Program-made: the position numbers and the translations under genes
In this document: in pieces, positions 37,178 to 47,310 of the stretch
How the letters are laid out: each line of letters starts with the position of its first letter
Numbering within the stretch: the first letter of the stretch is position 1
The notes under the pieces: generated by a model
Databases searched by the model: none
Told to the model about the DNA's origin: nothing
What the model saw: only the letters and a program-made list of their open reading frames with translations
Assembly (NCBI GenBank): GCA_024276465.1
Contig: JAJRXD010000064.1
Span: forward strand, 1-48,943
Direction of reading: 5' to 3'
Origin: Deltaproteobacteria bacterium
Lineage (GTDB): Bacteria; Desulfobacterota; WTBG01; CAIYCZ01; CAIRTM01
DNA: 48,943 nucleotides

Positions 37178-37969
37178 TCAATCATCCCTGCATGCTACCA
37201 TCCAGTCTCTTAAAAAACACAGGAGCTCCTCTGGAGGCTTTATCCACACGTCTGCACAGGTAGCACGATTTTGCCCCCGCACTAAAACACTCAGTCCCCG
37301 CTTTCCTAAAGCTCTGAACGCATCTTCATCAGTAATATCGTCACCAAGGCAAGCCACTGCACAGTCTTTGTTTGATTCAGACAGAATTGTGTCTACAGCA
37401 TTCCCCTTGTTTTTCCCCGGCACCCTGATCTCAATACCTCCATCAAACCCCAGCAGTGCCAGCTCCTCATGATGGGGAATAAGCGGCCAGTTCTCCTTAA
37501 CCTTGCGAATCATGTCATCTGTTTCAGATTTCTCCAGGCCACGCCAGTGCAGTGCAATAGATGCTGGTTTCATCTCGCAGAAACGGTACAGCCCTTCTTC
37601 TCTCAGGAAGTCCTCTGCACAGGTAAGTGCTTCAAGAAACTTTTTATCAATATTTTCAACATGGTATGTACCATCCGGCAGCAATCGCTCCCATCCATGT
37701 GAACCCCAGATTTCAGGTCTTCTTTTAAGCTTCAGCAGTTTCAGTAAATCTTTTGTCCAGCGGCCTGTAATAAGTATTATCCTGCAGGATTCATGCTCAG
37801 ATATTTCATCTAAAATAGTTTCAACACCCTCATACGGAACAGCCTCATTCCGCGCTTTTTTAAATGGCGCAAGCGTACCATCATAATCAAGCAGAAGTAT
37901 ACGTTCCCCTGCTTTTTTTACTTCCTTAAAAAAATTGTTAATGTCTGTCTCAGGGTTTAGTATTTCCAA
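37178..37969 (-). CDS. otsB: Trehalose-6-phosphate phosphatase family (OtsB)
   Basis: This HAD-superfamily phosphatase of 263 residues has motif I LLDYDGTLAPF, motif II LITGR, and motif IV CLGDDITDEDAF. The OtsB cap domain reads GSHGWERLLPDG and PASIALHWRG. It normally removes phosphate from trehalose 6-phosphate, but no OtsA synthase is in the window, so a related sugar phosphate is possible. It starts at TTG 37969, 3 bases after the stop of the histidine-phosphatase gene, as the second gene of a pair. Confidence 0.88.
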   Translation of the reverse strand: MEILNPETDINNFFKEVKKAGERILLLDYDGTLAPFKKARNEAVPYEGVETILDEISEHESCRIILITGRWTKDLLKLLKLKRRPEIWGSHGWERLLPDGTYHVENIDKKFLEALTCAEDFLREEGLYRFCEMKPASIALHWRGLEKSETDDMIRKVKENWPLIPHHEELALLGFDGGIEIRVPGKNKGNAVDTILSESNKDCAVACLGDDITDEDAFRALGKRGLSVLVRGQNRATCADVWIKPPEELLCFLRDWMVACRDD

Positions 37970-37972
37970 TCT

Positions 37973-38581
37973 TCAAATCGTCTCATTTACAAGCCTGACA
38001 ACAGGCACACCGTCAAAATAGTCAATTATGTTAAGGCATCCGTATGCCTGGTCAATTCTGGAAAGATTGCTGAGATCAAGCCCGAGCGCATGACACAGTA
38101 TTATCCTGTTCACCCCCCCGTGAGCAACAAGAAGCAGATTATTTCCATTGTGTTTTTCCAGGAATAAGTTCAGGGCTGGTATAACCCTGCTCTGTACATC
38201 CAGAAAGCTCTCTCCCCCTTCAACTCTGAACTCTGACAGGTTTAAAGTTCGTTTTTCAAACTCTGCGACAAATTTGTTCACAATCTCATCCCTTGTCATC
38301 CCTTCCCAGTGGCCAAGGTTAATTTCGCGAAAATCCCTGTGCTGCGAAGGAGACAGACCTAAAAAGCCTCCGATTATTTCTGCAGATTTTGCTGTCCTTT
38401 TAAGATCACTTGACAGAATAACATCTATCTCTTCATCTTTTAATCTTCCAGCAAGCCTTTTTATCTGTGCAATACCTGTATCATTCATCTCCACATCCAT
38501 ATGACCTACATATTTCCAGTCTTTGGATGTAGTCAGTTCCCCATGCCGCACTAAAAATAGCCGGGTTCTTCCTGTCTCCAT
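37973..38581 (-). CDS. Histidine phosphatase (phosphoglycerate-mutase superfamily)
   Basis: The catalytic motif LVRHGEL is at the N-terminus, with SDLKRTAKSAEII, the acid region GHWEGMTRDEI, and the second His in LLVAHGGVNRIIL. ATG 38581 was chosen because GGGAG lies nine bases upstream; an alternative GTG at 38659 would add 26 unconserved residues. The family includes alpha-ribazole phosphatase, fructose-2,6-bisphosphatase and sugar-phosphoglycerate phosphatases. The pairing with OtsB suggests a sugar-phosphate substrate, which is inference. Confidence 0.88.
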   Translation of the reverse strand: METGRTRLFLVRHGELTTSKDWKYVGHMDVEMNDTGIAQIKRLAGRLKDEEIDVILSSDLKRTAKSAEIIGGFLGLSPSQHRDFREINLGHWEGMTRDEIVNKFVAEFEKRTLNLSEFRVEGGESFLDVQSRVIPALNLFLEKHNGNNLLLVAHGGVNRIILCHALGLDLSNLSRIDQAYGCLNIIDYFDGVPVVRLVNETI

Positions 38582-38659
38582 ACTCTCAAGCTCCCTGTGG
38601 GAGGCAGGTGGAATTTTCAGGCCTTCAGATTCAGTGTTATTTAAACTTTTTGTTTTCAC

Positions 38660-39025
38660 TCTTTATTCATTAAAAAATTCTTAAATGGTTTCAAAAAAGT
38701 GCTGCAGGGGCTGAAAATGTAGTTTTGACAGGAAAACATCTGGCCCAGAGATATACTGGTCCAGCTAAATAGTGGCTGAACAAAAACCCTGTTTTTTGTT
38801 AGCGCGGCATATGTAGGAGCCGGCTTTAGCCGCGAAAAACAGACCTGTTGCTGCGTAATATCGCGCCTGAAGGCGCTCCTACAGAAAATTATTGATCAGA
38901 TTTTAACCTGAATCAGGGCTTTTCGTTCAGAACAGTATCTCCTTTTACGTGCCTGCTGAAAGATCAATGTTTCAAGCAAACAAAAAACTTCAGCCTTTTT
39001 TTCCAGTTCACCTATCCTGTTCCGG
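38660..39025. other. Intergenic region holding a repeat element, no gene seen
   Basis: About 165 of these bases form an element with terminal inverted repeats (38775-38935) that contains a REP-like pair GTAGGAGCC...GGCGCTCCTAC. Nothing else is visible. Confidence 0.5.
38775..38935. repeat. Element with CTGAACRAAAARCCCTG terminal inverted repeats
   Basis: The left end reads CTGAACAAAAACCCTG and the right end, inverted, CTGAACGAAAAGCCCTG. A REP-like inverted pair (GTAGGAGCCGGCTTTAGCCGCG and CGCGCCTGAAGGCGCTCCTAC) lies inside. A shorter relative with similar ends is at 48230-48330. Confidence 0.65.
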
Positions 39026-41209
39026 CTATAGCTGCATCTTGTCCCGGAGCATGCGGACAAGGGAAATATTTTCGCGGTGACCTGTCATGTTTGCAGTTAT
39101 CTTCCCCTTAATTGAGCGGCCAAGGAGATAAAGATCTCCAACCATGTCAAGAATTTTATGCCTGACAAACTCATCAGGAAACCTGAGTACAGTATTAACA
39201 ATCTTTTCCTCATCAATTAAAATAAAGTTATTAAGTCTGCCTCCGCCAGCCAGTCCTTTTTTTTCCAGTGCTTCTATATCCTTCAAAAATCCGAAAGTTC
39301 TTGCTGGAGCAATCTCTTTTTTGAATACCTCTTCATCCTCTAAAATAAATGTGTACTCCTGATGCCCGACCGGTTTTGGATAATTCAGTATGTAATGAAT
39401 GGAAAATTTTTCCGAAGGCTCAATTGTGATAAATTTGCTCTTTTTTTTGATCTCACCTAATGAATATTTTTTTTTGACAACAATCTCTTCTGCTATCTCG
39501 TCCTGATCGTCAATACCGGCATCCTCTATTATCTGGCAGAAATCCACTGATGAACCGTCCATAATGGGAACTTCATTGTTAATTTTAATCATAAGATTTG
39601 TTATGCCGTATGCATGGAGTACCGCAAGAAAATGTTCTATGGTGCGGGCAACCGCACTTGAGTTCTTTACACTGGTTGCATAATCAGTGGAAACAACATA
39701 ATCAATGTAAGCCGGGATAGTTTCACCACTGGAAATATTACCAAAAATAATGCCGCTGTTTGGTGGAAGCGGGTTAATAATAATGCCGGTTTTATCTCCG
39801 GAGTGGAGTCCCCTGCCACTCAGCACCATGCTTCTTTTCAGTGTTCTTTGAAACTTTTTCCCTGCCTTTTTCTCCCTGCTCAGGATAATCCCGAATTCAT
39901 TAATGTATCTTCTTAATGTTTTCTCATTAATATCTAATTGTACAGCTGTTTTAGGAACACTTCTATTGTTCTTTTTCAGATAGTAAAGGATATAATTTTT
40001 TCTCCAGGCTGATTCTGCTTCATCCAGGCTCGTATACCTTTCATAATACGGAGCCATACTGTACCGCATCTCATCACGGACAGACAGAGGAATGTCATGC
40101 ACTGAAATATTTTTTGTCGGAACCGAAACAACCAGTTTTTCCACAAGATTTTTCAGCTCTTTAACATTTCCAGGCCAGTCATAGTTTACCAGTATTTCAA
40201 GGGCATCATCCTCAAAATTTTTTTGCCTGAATGCATAATCCCTGCAAAAAAATTCAAGAAAAAAAGTAAGTAAAAGCGATATGTCGCCTCTTCTGTATCG
40301 CAGAGATGGCATTTTTATTTTGTGCGGAAAACAATCAAGCAGGTCTTTATGGAATATTCCGTCTGCTATCCCTTTATCTATATCTTTAATAGATGCTGCA
40401 ATAATTCTTCCCTTAGAGCCATTTTTTTGGGGAGATAAAATAAAGTCTGCAAGCCTCTTTTGTCCTTTCAAAGGAAGCAGGTCTAAAGAATCAATAAAAA
40501 TTGTGCCCTGGGAATTGTTCTGAATAAAACCAGGTTTCGGATTATGTTCTTCTCTGCTCTTAGGGTAGCCAAAAAGCTCTGTTACAAGCTCTTCCGGGGT
40601 ATGAACTGCACAATTAAATTTTTTTACAGAATGAGATCTTCTTCTTGATGCAGAGTGTATCAGCTTTGTAACAAGCTCCTTGCCAGTACCAATCTCTCCG
40701 GAAAGGAAAACATTATCTTCACTTTTTGCCATTTCCGAAATATGTTCCTTAATTCTCAGGATGCTCTGGCTTTCACCTGTTAAAACAGGCTTGTAGTCCT
40801 TTGCGGAAGCCTTGTTCTGTTTTACACCCCTGGTTGAAAACTGACGTTTTTCTTTTATTTTTTTTAATATGTTAATTACGGTATCAAGAGAAAAAGGCTT
40901 TTCTAAAAAATCAAAAGCACCCTGTTTAACAGCCTGAACAGCAGTATTGACAGTTCCATGTCCTGTCATCATGACTACTTCTATGGTAGAATCAAAATCC
41001 TTTATAGCATTAAGTGTCTGAAGACCATCCATTTCAGGAAGCCATATGTCCAGAAAAACAATGTCAACAGCCTGTGATTTAATTATCTCAATTGCTTTAA
41101 TTCCATCTGACGCTGTTCGGACAATACAACCTTCATCTTCAAGGCTTCCGCTTAATGTATTAACAATGGAGTCTTCATCATCAACCAGCAGTATTACAGG
41201 ACTTTCCAT
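39026..41209 (-). CDS. lpxC: NtrX-like regulator fused to UDP-3-O-acyl-GlcNAc deacetylase (LpxC)
   Basis: This 727-residue protein joins two systems. Residues 1-120 are a receiver with phosphoacceptor Asp54 (FLDIWLPEMDG). Residues about 141-370 resemble a sigma-54 AAA+ domain with Walker A GEIGTGKELV, and about 400-440 a Fis-like helix-turn-helix. The AAA+ part has lost the GAFTGA loop and its Walker B Glu (IDS instead of DE). Residues about 453-727 are a full LpxC: GRGLHSG, TIEHFLAVLHAYGI (His526), RHKILDMVGD (His684, Asp688, Asp692) and GHREN (His711), the zinc and catalytic residues of lipid A synthesis. The ntrY gene ends 14 bases upstream. The LpxC part is predicted active; the regulator is unlikely to activate sigma-54. 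Confidence 0.92.
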   Translation of the reverse strand: MESPVILLVDDEDSIVNTLSGSLEDEGCIVRTASDGIKAIEIIKSQAVDIVFLDIWLPEMDGLQTLNAIKDFDSTIEVVMMTGHGTVNTAVQAVKQGAFDFLEKPFSLDTVINILKKIKEKRQFSTRGVKQNKASAKDYKPVLTGESQSILRIKEHISEMAKSEDNVFLSGEIGTGKELVTKLIHSASRRRSHSVKKFNCAVHTPEELVTELFGYPKSREEHNPKPGFIQNNSQGTIFIDSLDLLPLKGQKRLADFILSPQKNGSKGRIIAASIKDIDKGIADGIFHKDLLDCFPHKIKMPSLRYRRGDISLLLTFFLEFFCRDYAFRQKNFEDDALEILVNYDWPGNVKELKNLVEKLVVSVPTKNISVHDIPLSVRDEMRYSMAPYYERYTSLDEAESAWRKNYILYYLKKNNRSVPKTAVQLDINEKTLRRYINEFGIILSREKKAGKKFQRTLKRSMVLSGRGLHSGDKTGIIINPLPPNSGIIFGNISSGETIPAYIDYVVSTDYATSVKNSSAVARTIEHFLAVLHAYGITNLMIKINNEVPIMDGSSVDFCQIIEDAGIDDQDEIAEEIVVKKKYSLGEIKKKSKFITIEPSEKFSIHYILNYPKPVGHQEYTFILEDEEVFKKEIAPARTFGFLKDIEALEKKGLAGGGRLNNFILIDEEKIVNTVLRFPDEFVRHKILDMVGDLYLLGRSIKGKITANMTGHRENISLVRMLRDKMQL

Positions 41210-41223
41210 TTATGCAATTCCTT

Positions 41224-43464
41224 TCAAATTCTCACCTTCTGACTTGCAGGCAGTTCTATGACAAAACAGGTTCCCCTGGGATGATTGGATCGGACCCTGA
41301 TGTAACCACTGTGATCCGATACAATGGTATTTACTATCGCAAGGCCTAAACCAGTACCTGCTTTTTTCGTTGAAAAATAAGGTTCAAACAGCTTTGCCCT
41401 CAGCTTGGGAGGAACACCACTGCCAGTATCAGCAATTTCAATGGTTACCAACTCTAACGTGTTATTATAAGATGTCTTTATGGTTACTTTTCCCTCATTT
41501 TCCATTGAGTCAACCGCATTGTCAAGCAGATTAATCATAACCCGTTTCATTTGATCTCTGTCAAGATTAAAACGCAGGGGGCCATGATCCCTGATAAATT
41601 CAAAAGTTACGTTTTTATGTGCCTCTTTATAAAGAAGCAGTGTTTCACCAATTATCTCATTAATGTCATTGGGCACAGGATTTGTTGCAGGCATCCTTGC
41701 AAAACTCGAAAATTCATTAACAAGGGTTTTCAGTTCATCTACCTGGTTTATAATCGTCCTGGTGCATTCATCAAATATTTTCCCATCCTGCTGGATTTGA
41801 GGTTGAAATTTTTTTCTAAGCCTTTGGGCCGACAGTTTAATGGGGGTTAAGGGGTTTTTAACCTCGTGGGCAATGCGCCGTGCAACCTCCTTCCATGCAT
41901 AGGCTCTCTGTGCCTGCTGAATCTGGGTAAGGTCCTCAGCAACAAGAACAAGGCCAAGGTATTTATCTTCCCTGTCAAACAGCATTTTTAACCTTGCATA
42001 TAAAAAAATGGTTTTCTGGGCAAAAGACAGCGTTAGCTGTTTATCAGCTGCCCTTTGCTTGAACTTGCTGATCTCTTCAATAAATTCAAGCAAAGGCTGC
42101 AAAGCTTCCCGGGTGAGAACTTCAGTATAATGTTTGTTAAGAGCATTGTCCATACTGATGCCGAACATTTTCTCTGCTGATTTGTTAAACGTTGTAATTA
42201 CACCATATGTGTTAATAGAAATAACAACCGCTGCCACATTATCCAGAAGTATTTCCATATAAAGCCTCCTGTGATCAAGCTCTGCAATGGTCTCTCTCAA
42301 ATCACTGGTGGTCGATTCAACCTGCTCTGTGCTCACTTTTAAATCACGTGTCATTTTATTAAAAGAATCTATCAGACTCCCGATCTCATCATCAGTTGCA
42401 GGATCTATCTGAAAATCAAGATTCCCCTGGGCAACCTGCTGTGTTGCCTCAGCAAGCGAGCTGATGGGCACTGTAATAACTTTCGAAAGATGAAACCCGA
42501 ACCATGTTGCGGAAAATATAATAAGCAGAGTAACAACAGAAAGCAAAATCACATAAATCAGCTTTATAGGATTTTTGTAAATTTTAAGCTGCTTATACTC
42601 CTGAAATGCTCTTGAAATTGTATCCATCTTGGAAACAAGACTTTGAGGAACATAATAATTTACCACCACTACTCCTACAATATCTTTGCGTTTCCAGGTG
42701 GAGCGAACAGGCACAACCCCTCTTATAATGTCACCTTCTCCGGCAGGCTGTATGCGGGTAACTTCCTTCCCGTACAGAGCCTGCCTGACCAAGGCAGATT
42801 CAGCACTGATAAACCCGCTGTCCGGTATCTCCGGGTTCATTACCAGAAGGAGTTCTTCAAGCTGGGATGAAAACACCTCAACAACACCCAGATTATATTC
42901 AACCTGCTTTTCTCCCACAAATTTCTTCAGTTTATCCAGATTTTTCTCGTTAAGGAGTTTTTTATCCGTGATTTTACGGCTTATCTGTTGTGCATAATAA
43001 AGAGCATTGGAAGCGGAATTTTTATAATAAACTTCAGCAACAGCAAGAGACTCTTCAAGAGAGCTTTCCACCTTGAAACTGAACCAGTTTTCAATAGTAT
43101 TGGTTATAAATCCAATAGACACCCAAAAAAGAAGTAAAGTAGGCACCAGAGAAAGCCCTATAAAGGCTATAACAAGCTTTGTTCTCAGTTTTGAACCAAG
43201 AATACCTTTTTTGCGTTCAAAAAAAAGCTTGACTATATTTCGAACAACAAGAAAAATCAGAAGCAGAAGCAAAATAGCATTTACATTAATGAGACTGAAA
43301 ACAAGAATGTTCTGGGGCAGAAGAGCCTCACCTTTAAGCCCTGTAAGGTATACTAAAAGTGAAGTGAGAGCGATTACAAGTGCAATAATAGCAAGAATCG
43401 CTATTCTCTCTCTCCTCCTCCTTTGCTTTTCAGACTTCTTTTCCTGTTTTACTTCTGTGTTCAT
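41224..43464 (-). CDS. ntrY: NtrY-like membrane sensor histidine kinase
   Basis: Residues about 15-90 hold two or three membrane helices, a periplasmic domain of about 170 residues follows, and another helix precedes a HAMP domain (ITVPISSLAEATQQVAQGN). A PAS domain and then the kinase core follow: H-box RIAHEVKNPLTPIKLSAQRLR, N-box NLLDNAVDS, G1 DTGSGVP, and GTGLGLAIV. This domain order is that of NtrY. The start is uncertain: ATG 43464 is given, but 43476 (ATG) and 43494 (TTG) are also in frame and none has a clear ribosome binding site. The downstream partner is the NtrX-LpxC fusion, so this sensor may influence lipid A synthesis. Confidence 0.92.
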   Translation of the reverse strand: MNTEVKQEKKSEKQRRRRERIAILAIIALVIALTSLLVYLTGLKGEALLPQNILVFSLINVNAILLLLLIFLVVRNIVKLFFERKKGILGSKLRTKLVIAFIGLSLVPTLLLFWVSIGFITNTIENWFSFKVESSLEESLAVAEVYYKNSASNALYYAQQISRKITDKKLLNEKNLDKLKKFVGEKQVEYNLGVVEVFSSQLEELLLVMNPEIPDSGFISAESALVRQALYGKEVTRIQPAGEGDIIRGVVPVRSTWKRKDIVGVVVVNYYVPQSLVSKMDTISRAFQEYKQLKIYKNPIKLIYVILLSVVTLLIIFSATWFGFHLSKVITVPISSLAEATQQVAQGNLDFQIDPATDDEIGSLIDSFNKMTRDLKVSTEQVESTTSDLRETIAELDHRRLYMEILLDNVAAVVISINTYGVITTFNKSAEKMFGISMDNALNKHYTEVLTREALQPLLEFIEEISKFKQRAADKQLTLSFAQKTIFLYARLKMLFDREDKYLGLVLVAEDLTQIQQAQRAYAWKEVARRIAHEVKNPLTPIKLSAQRLRKKFQPQIQQDGKIFDECTRTIINQVDELKTLVNEFSSFARMPATNPVPNDINEIIGETLLLYKEAHKNVTFEFIRDHGPLRFNLDRDQMKRVMINLLDNAVDSMENEGKVTIKTSYNNTLELVTIEIADTGSGVPPKLRAKLFEPYFSTKKAGTGLGLAIVNTIVSDHSGYIRVRSNHPRGTCFVIELPASQKVRI

Positions 43465-43655
43465 GGGTCTACGCATGCAAAACAAAATGATCAAAGCCGG
43501 GCCGGGGGGCCTTGCCGGTTTTCAGTACAAAGAAAAAACTTGAAACAACTTGCAAAAAAAAGGGTTTTCTTCAGACGTCAATTGGCCTATACTACATTTA
43601 TCATTATATGATATTGTGTCAACATCAAAAAATGAGTTTTTAAATTTTCTTGACA

Positions 43656-44923: not shown

Positions 44924-46711
44924 ATGGATAATGAAAAAAGAATATTAATTGCTATTGTGCTTTCAATTGCAGTTCTTTTTATATATCAGTCATATTTTAC
45001 GCCTCCTCCTCCACCTGATCAGGGCAAACGTTTCCAGGATGAACAGCCCCTTCCCCAAAAACATGATGATGCAACAGGCATTGCATATCCCCCGCCAAAA
45101 AAAAATACAGTAATTAAGCCACTGTCACAGCATTCAGCAGATGATTTCTCAGTCACACCTGGAAAGGAGATAAAAGTCACCACCAATATTCTTTCTGCAA
45201 CTTTTTCCTCAAATCTTGCACGCCTGAAAAGCTTCTGTCTGCTGAAATATAAAGATAAAATCGCACAGCCACAAATAGTTAAACTATTCAGGGGTTTTTA
45301 TTCTTCAGGAAGTGATGATGAGACACCGGAAACACCTCACGGTGTCAACAATAAAGAGATGATACATATTCAGCAGCCACTGTTTCTGCCCTTAAGAACA
45401 TCTTTCACAGACTCAAACGGTGTAATTCTCAACGATACAACCTGGGAGCCTGACAAAGACCATGTTCTGCTTGAGGGCAGCACCGGAGAAAATTCCCTGT
45501 TATTTAAGCAAAGATATCCTGACGGATTTGAAATTCAAAAGGAGTTCATATTCAGAGAAAATGACTACAGGATTGATTCCACGCTTACGTTTTTGAACAA
45601 TTCTGATTCCACACGTGAGGGAAATGCTTTTGTTGAATGGACAGCGCCCCACCCTGAAAAAAATGGCGGTGGATTTTTAGGCATGTCACGATCAACAGAT
45701 GTATCACGTTTTGCATATTTCATAAACGGAAAGGTTGAAAGGAAAGAATTAAAAGACATTAAAGATGAAATAATTCTTGAAGGTGAATTTCTCTGGACAT
45801 CCATAGAAGAAAAATATTTTATCTCTGCTGTCATTCCAGGAAGCCGCAAACCTGCACAGGTGCGAATAGGTCCGACTGATAATTACATTGCATACCAGCT
45901 CCTGTATCCTCTCATTACATTAAAACCTGGCGACAGTATCACATATGGTTTTTCACTTTTTGTGGGACCTCTGGATATTGACATTCTCAAACAACAGGGG
46001 GCAAGTCTGGAAAAAGCCATTGATTTCGGGTTTTTTGACATTATAGCAAAGCCACTTCTTTTGAGCCTCATATTCTTCAACAAATACATTGGGAACTACG
46101 GCCTGGCTATTATCTTTATCACTATAATCATAAAAATATTCTTCTGGCCCCTTACGAACAAGAGCATGAAATCAATGAAGGGCATGCAGAACATACAGCC
46201 TGAAATTGCACAGCTTAAAGAAAAATACAAGGACAACAAAGAAGAGTTTGCAAGACAACAGATGGCACTTTACAAGAAATACAAGGTAAACCCGCTTGGC
46301 GGGTGCCTGCCCATGCTTCTCCAGATTCCTGTTTTTATTGCTCTTTACCGTGTCCTGAACAGTTCAATAGAGTTGAGGCATGCAAACTTTATATCATTCT
46401 GGATCAATGATCTGTCTGCAAAAGACCCCACATATATTGCACCCGTTCTTATGGGACTTTCAATGCTTCTTCAGCAAAAAATGACCCCCACATCTGCTGA
46501 TCCGGCACAGGCAAAAATGATGATGTTCATGCCTGTTATTTTTACGGTAATGTTCCTGAATTTTCCCTCTGGCCTGGTAATATACTGGCTTGTAAACAAT
46601 GTCCTTTCAATTGCACAGCAATTGTATATTAACAAAAAATCCAATGTTGCAGGAGGCACAACAGAATGCAGTCCATCGAAACCGAAGCAAAAACAGTCGA
46701 AGAAGCGATAG
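44924..46711 (+). CDS. yidC: Membrane protein insertase YidC/Oxa1
   Basis: The 595-residue protein has an N-terminal membrane anchor (ILIAIVLSIAVLFIYQSYF), a Pro-rich linker, the large periplasmic beta domain (about residues 75-360), and the C-terminal five-helix insertase core: GNYGLAIIFITIIIKIFFWPLT, KSMKSMKGMQNIQPEI, PVFIALYRVLNSSIELRHA, and PSGLVIYWLVNN. The Lys-rich tail is typical. Its end overlaps jag by 46 bases. Confidence 0.96.
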   Translation: MDNEKRILIAIVLSIAVLFIYQSYFTPPPPPDQGKRFQDEQPLPQKHDDATGIAYPPPKKNTVIKPLSQHSADDFSVTPGKEIKVTTNILSATFSSNLARLKSFCLLKYKDKIAQPQIVKLFRGFYSSGSDDETPETPHGVNNKEMIHIQQPLFLPLRTSFTDSNGVILNDTTWEPDKDHVLLEGSTGENSLLFKQRYPDGFEIQKEFIFRENDYRIDSTLTFLNNSDSTREGNAFVEWTAPHPEKNGGGFLGMSRSTDVSRFAYFINGKVERKELKDIKDEIILEGEFLWTSIEEKYFISAVIPGSRKPAQVRIGPTDNYIAYQLLYPLITLKPGDSITYGFSLFVGPLDIDILKQQGASLEKAIDFGFFDIIAKPLLLSLIFFNKYIGNYGLAIIFITIIIKIFFWPLTNKSMKSMKGMQNIQPEIAQLKEKYKDNKEEFARQQMALYKKYKVNPLGGCLPMLLQIPVFIALYRVLNSSIELRHANFISFWINDLSAKDPTYIAPVLMGLSMLLQQKMTPTSADPAQAKMMMFMPVIFTVMFLNFPSGLVIYWLVNNVLSIAQQLYINKKSNVAGGTTECSPSKPKQKQSKKR

Positions 46712-47310
46712 TAAAAGCATGCGCACAGTTAAATACCACAAAGGACAACCTTCGTGTTGAAATTCTTGAAAGCTCTACAGGAGGCATCCTTTCATTTTTT
46801 TCCGGGAAAAAGGTACGGATAAAGGCAAGCCTTGCAAACTCATCAGTTCAAACAGGCCAGGATGCCATCAATTCATTAAAAGAAACTCTGGAAACAATAG
46901 TGAAAAAAATATGTCCGGAAGCATCCGTTGACATTTCAACGGAACACGGCGAGACTGTTCTGAACATAATTGGAGATGGAAGCGGTATTTTTATTGGAAA
47001 AAACGGGCAGACACTTCAAGCCTTCCAGTATATTTTAGGCAAAATAAAAATGAATAAATTCAGAAACGCCCCCCATATAGTTGTTGACTCTGAATCATAC
47101 CGCTCCCGTCATATTGATTCCTTAACCAGCCTTGCTAAACGGCTGAGCAGCAAAGCAAAAAAGAAAAAGGGGGCGGTTGCCACAGAACCTCTCAGCCCCA
47201 GTGACAGAAGAATTATTCATATGACTTTAAAAAAGGATAAGGAACTGACTACATGGAGCAAGGGCCATGGAAATATAAAAAAGGTTATTATTGCTCCAAA
47301 AAACTCATAA
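46666..47310 (+). CDS. jag: Jag/KhpB (EloR) RNA-binding protein
   Basis: The 214-residue protein has the Jag_N domain (SIETEAKTVEEAIVKA, SSTGGILSFFSGKKVRI), a KH domain with GDGSGIFIGKNGQTLQAFQYIL, and an R3H domain with DRRIIHMTLK. It binds single-stranded RNA and coordinates cell elongation in other bacteria. It overlaps yidC by 46 bases. The usual next gene, mnmE, is absent; a convergent HAD gene follows. Confidence 0.95.
   Translation: MQSIETEAKTVEEAIVKACAQLNTTKDNLRVEILESSTGGILSFFSGKKVRIKASLANSSVQTGQDAINSLKETLETIVKKICPEASVDISTEHGETVLNIIGDGSGIFIGKNGQTLQAFQYILGKIKMNKFRNAPHIVVDSESYRSRHIDSLTSLAKRLSSKAKKKKGAVATEPLSPSDRRIIHMTLKKDKELTTWSKGHGNIKKVIIAPKNS

Follow-up and report, generated by a model that had tools for sequence, protein, structure and literature searches.

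A receiver domain fused to the lipid A enzyme LpxC recurs in two bacterial phyla and plausibly places outer-membrane synthesis under direct control of a sensor kinase

Results

The only LpxC of an uncultured bacterium is part of a two-component signalling protein

We find that in an uncultured Deltaproteobacteria bacterium (assembly GCA_024276465.1) the only copy of LpxC, the enzyme that commits the cell to making the lipid A of its outer membrane, is built into a two-component signalling protein. The same receiver-enzyme fusion recurs in about a hundred other species of two phyla, so a sensor kinase can plausibly switch outer-membrane synthesis directly. The gene was found in a 48,943-nucleotide stretch of contig JAJRXD010000064.1 (hereafter the window), where it forms a single ORF of 727 codons from ATG to TAG. 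It lies on the minus strand rather than the plus strand, the latter being full of stops at this position. The features of the locus are as follows:

39026-41209, minus strand: fusion gene, NtrX-type receiver, degenerate AAA+, Fis-like HTH and LpxC, 727 aa, single ORF
40865-41194, minus strand: receiver domain (residues 6-115), with D10, D11, D54, T82 and K104 intact
41048-41050, minus strand: codon of the phospho-acceptor Asp54
40070-40780, minus strand: AAA+ ATPase core and lid (residues 144-380), degenerate, Walker A kept, GAFTGA loop and Walker-B Glu lost
39887-40027, minus strand: Fis-like helix-turn-helix segment (about residues 395-441), divergent
39047-39850, minus strand: LpxC catalytic domain (residues 454-721) with E525, H526, T638, H684, K685, D688, D692 and H711
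41224-43494, minus strand: NtrY-type sensor histidine kinase, with four hydrophobic segments, HAMP, PAS, HisKA and HATPase; the ORF opens at TTG, with the probable true start an ATG at 43464

Pfam identifies the receiver (PF00072, residues 6-115), a sigma-54-type AAA+ domain (PF00158, residues 144-291, only 82 bits) with its lid (PF25601, residues 304-380), and a complete LpxC (PF03331, residues 454-721) at 278 bits against a cut-off of 27 (E 1e-83). The LpxC part also scores 253 bits against a cut-off of 187 with TIGR00325. The NCBIfam NtrX and NtrC models extend to residue 441, covering the Fis-like HTH. However, while NtrX is the best NCBIfam model, its score of 272.6 bits over residues 6-441 is far below the curated cut-off of 600 bits. 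PADLOC matches were only to the AAA+/HTH part. Directly upstream, the 756-codon ORF of the NtrY-type kinase (NtrY_N, HAMP, PAS, HisKA and HATPase) ends 14 bp before the ATG of the fusion, and contains an intact H-box (HEVKNPL) as well as the N, G1, F and G2 boxes. The initial annotation, which had described an in-frame fusion of LpxC to an NtrX-like response regulator, is thus confirmed, and the LpxC residues it listed (H526, H684, D688, D692 and H711), as well as D54, are correct. Its description of the AAA+ domain as sigma-54-type, however, applies to ancestry and not to function.

A profile search of the whole 4.1 Mb genome (181 contigs, 95% complete) with PF03331 finds LpxC at this one place. 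The remainder of the early pathway is present, with lpxD, fabZ and lpxA clustered behind bamA on contig 134 (bamA-x-lpxD-fabZ-lpxA, with no lpxC among them) and lpxB on contig 56. RpoN is also present. The fusion must therefore supply the deacetylase if the cell makes lipid A. Next to lpxA (L165:7013-7972, on contig 134) is a gene matching a UDP-GlcNAc 3-dehydrogenase model below its cut-off (GnnA-like), a hint of 2,3-diamino-sugar lipid A.

The fusion is not an assembly or annotation error

The initial annotation had cautioned that a sequencing or assembly error at the junction, or a second stand-alone LpxC together with loss of activity of this one, would undermine the finding. Both possibilities were tested and neither holds. 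All 11 genomes of the order examined have their single LpxC inside a 630-768-aa open frame, and independently assembled MAGs of Thermodesulfobacteriota and others show the same protein at 58-68% identity (several of these are the same genomes as in the set of 11). No in-frame ATG, GTG or TTG separates the HTH from LpxC in the window protein, and no such start is conserved among relatives, the only conserved ATG at the junction lying inside the LpxC fold. A missed stop codon or an assembly join of adjacent ntrX and lpxC genes, and separate translation of LpxC from an internal start, can therefore be rejected.

Receiver-LpxC proteins form a distinct group in two phyla

To determine how widespread the arrangement is, a profile of 12 fused LpxC domains was run over 395 genomes of the phylum. 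This yielded two separate groups, with 91 matches in 90 genomes of 25 families at E <= 3e-81, all in frames of 382 aa or more, followed by a gap and then matches from E 1e-70 (other kinds of LpxC fusion among the weaker matches are not excluded). In ORFs fetched from both groups, every fused-group protein has a receiver (in one case, only its end lies in the open frame), while none of 30 standalone LpxCs does. Sixty-six of the 91 frames are 380-530 aa, comprising receiver plus LpxC with a linker of about 26-70 residues and nothing between. Very long ORFs (1423, 1093 and 1007 aa) look like open frames upstream of the true start, as opposed to extra domains. In 85 of the 90 genomes the fusion is the only LpxC match, by match counts. 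A few genomes (G256, G213 and G056) have both a receiver-LpxC fusion and a standalone LpxC, with the fused copy being very divergent in G213 and G256 (branch 1.58). Intriguingly, one genome of family f76 (families are denoted by f numbers) carries two different receiver-LpxC fusions about 130 kb apart, raising the question of differential regulation. The same split between fused and standalone LpxC was seen in a second phylum, Acidobacteriota, where 19 of 396 genomes have the compact fusion.

A tree of 101 LpxC domains places all fused ones on one side of a branch with 100/100 support. The fused clade shares private changes, e.g. E95K and S263T (E. coli numbering) and two one-residue deletions. 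AAA-containing forms occur at several places in this group, which fits one fusion to NtrX followed by repeated loss of AAA+ and HTH, although deep branches are unresolved and the direction is inferred. In one genome (G139), belonging to a family whose other sampled members have standalone LpxC, the AAA-type fusion is the only LpxC, which suggests transfer and replacement. The best solved relatives of the receiver are the Brucella NtrX receiver (PDB 4d6x) and full-length NtrX (5m7n), with which it shares the LDIW signature. The Trp at this position is invariant in the fusions and absent from the genome's other NtrC-type receivers that could be read. Together with the neighbouring NtrY gene, this points to an ntrY-ntrX-lpxC neighbourhood as the source.

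Receiver and LpxC are under strong constraint while the AAA+ domain decays

In 69 distinct fused proteins, D10, D11, D54, G83, K104 and P105 of the receiver are invariant, and position 82 is always Thr or Ser. In the LpxC part, the zinc ligands and catalytic residues E78, H79, H238, K239, D242, D246 and H265 (E. coli numbering) are likewise invariant, while T191 is Thr in 67 and Ser in 2; all are kept in the window protein. A non-functional LpxC appears unlikely on this basis, although activity itself is inferred. A second set of 20 sequences, nearly all from the second phylum, also retains every receiver residue. Among the AAA-containing proteins of the window's lineage, receiver and LpxC are each 0.72 identical on average, compared with 0.59 for the HTH and 0.35 for the AAA+ core. 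In close pairs, AAA+ dN/dS is 0.11-0.18, against 0.02-0.10 for the receiver and 0.03-0.07 for LpxC, where it could be computed. All 21 AAA-containing proteins have lost the GAFTGA loop and the Walker-B Glu (Walker B reads FIDSLD) while keeping Walker A. In contrast, of the genome's other NtrC-type regulators for which motifs could be read, those with a receiver keep (G/S)FTGA, and most show the DE box. Members of family f60 represent an intermediate receiver-AAA+-LpxC architecture that has also lost the HTH, with its own form of decayed Walker B. The AAA+ module is therefore kept under weaker constraint, as a scaffold or on its way out, whereas receiver and enzyme are both under strong constraint.

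These data bear on two other readings of the fusion. In the first, the protein is a transcription factor with LpxC as a sensor (a trigger enzyme), substrate occupancy of the LpxC domain tuning DNA binding of the HTH. While an HTH-like segment is kept in the window's lineage and NtrX is a transcription factor elsewhere (PMC7240162), most of the family lacks AAA+ and HTH, f60 has AAA+ without HTH, the GAFTGA loop and the Walker-B Glu are lost in 21 of 21, and the HTH hardly resembles those of the genome's NtrC-type paralogues. We consider this reading unlikely, although a residual DNA-binding role in the AAA-containing subgroup is not excluded. In the second, the receiver is only a folding, dimerisation or inherited passenger domain without phospho-switching. 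Fusions can indeed be neutral, and many loci lack an adjacent kinase. However, a passenger would be expected to lose its phosphorylation residues, as the AAA+ lost its own, yet these are invariant in 69 plus 20 sequences from two phyla, and receiver dN/dS is about as low as that of LpxC. This too appears improbable.

Genomic context and structure prediction

An NtrY-like kinase lies directly upstream in 23 of 61 loci with enough sequence, in 12 families and with both architectures. Families f12, f14, f15, f29, f32, f58 and f60 lack it there, and many compact members have no kinase gene beside them. Other conserved neighbours differ between families and are not lipid A genes. Downstream of the fusion in the window, on the same strand (37178-38659), are a histidine-phosphatase-family gene and a trehalose-phosphatase-family gene; the first, and often the second, follow the fusion in several genomes of the family. 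Between the fusion gene and the next gene (38790-38890) lies a pair of REP-like palindromes (gagcgccttcaggcgc ... cgcggctaaagccggctcc), as mobilised by REP-associated transposases elsewhere. Upstream of ntrY and facing away from it are yidC and jag/khpB (44924-47310). A similarly sized gene of the same cluster recurs there in related genomes, so the fusion sits beside the yidC-jag cluster that often marks the origin region.

Unfortunately, AlphaFold models of the window protein and of a compact homologue (L052), based on 9-10 sequences, had mean pLDDT values of 55 and 65 and were too poor to show any receiver-LpxC contact. The only hint is that helix alpha-5 of the L052 receiver runs on to residue 142, and this is low-confidence beyond about residue 125. 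Inter-domain linkers in the compact forms are short and variable, with no obvious conserved transmission element.

Discussion

The features common to the family are a functional-looking receiver and a functional-looking LpxC. AAA+ and HTH are absent in most members, so the regulated output common to all is LpxC, not DNA. The simplest reading, which we consider likely, is that the gene encodes a single-chain signalling enzyme. The membrane kinase encoded next to it would phosphorylate Asp54 of the receiver, and the phosphorylated receiver would change the activity, oligomeric state or availability of LpxC on the same chain, setting flux into lipid A in response to an envelope or environmental signal. 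Both phosphotransfer and the effect on LpxC, including its sign, are inferred in the absence of biochemical evidence. In this view the AAA+ and HTH segments of the window's lineage are remnants of an NtrX ancestor, the AAA+ no longer working as a sigma-54 activator and having probably become a scaffold or assembly module. The initial annotation had proposed direct two-component control of LpxC, and this inference is supported and strengthened by the wider family, of which the window protein is the elaborate form. It is somewhat more likely than not that this represents a widespread family across two phyla in which lipid A synthesis is set post-translationally by a phosphorelay acting on a covalently linked LpxC, a switch that arose once by fusion to NtrX, has repeatedly shed the ancestor's transcription machinery, and serves as the cell's only LpxC.

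Alternatively, the receiver may control LpxC turnover or location rather than catalysis, its phosphorylation state deciding whether the fused enzyme is handed to a protease or recruited to the membrane, replacing the FtsH/LapB route of E. coli. LpxC is controlled by regulated proteolysis in E. coli (PMC12444477), the fused proteins end soon after the catalytic domain without E. coli's C-terminal tail, and some single-domain receivers may act as protease adaptors. However, no degron or adaptor site was identified (LapB/FtsH were not searched for), and the conserved tether of receiver to enzyme is equally explained by control of activity. We regard this as possible but less probable than the reading above.

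LpxC catalyses the committed, usually essential step of lipid A synthesis and is a long-pursued antibiotic target, with proteolysis, partner proteins and transcription as its known controls. A conserved receiver on the enzyme itself would be a direct, reversible and fast route from an envelope sensor to outer-membrane synthesis, in lineages whose LPS control is unstudied. Receivers that control an enzyme on the same chain are known from response regulators with enzymatic outputs, such as CheB or GGDEF types, but LpxC as the output domain was not found described in the literature searched, which was open-access only and thus is not proof of absence. LpxC fused in frame to another protein is known from the LpxC-FabZ bifunctional enzyme (PRK13188). 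There the partner is a fatty-acid enzyme and not a signalling domain, and the window protein ends after LpxC, with FabZ encoded separately. Standalone LpxC (PF03331/TIGR00325), controlled by FtsH-LapB-YejM in E. coli or by transcription elsewhere, shares the fold family and the complete catalytic set, but has no receiver in the 30 cases fetched and falls on the other side of the branch that unites the fused forms.

Two-component control of lipid A synthesis is also known from Desulfovibrio vulgaris, a sulfate reducer formerly grouped with these bacteria as Deltaproteobacteria, where the DNA-binding response regulator DVU2934 acts on the promoter of a standalone lpxC (PMC3333781). The NtrY-NtrX system of Rhodobacter sphaeroides and Caulobacter belongs to the same kinase/receiver family and has the same target enzyme. 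In R. sphaeroides, loss of ntrYX raises lpxC mRNA 8.8-fold and also raises LPS (PMC7240162), and a 2025 review of lipid A regulation lists NtrYX and ChvGI as transcriptional controls and mentions no fusion (PMC12444477). Control by NtrYX is transcriptional and apparently indirect in that case, no NtrX site having been found at lpxC, whereas here the receiver is covalently part of LpxC and most relatives have no DNA-binding domain. The compact receiver-LpxC proteins (about 440 aa) give a physical counterpart to the transcriptional link between NtrYX and the envelope seen in other bacteria.
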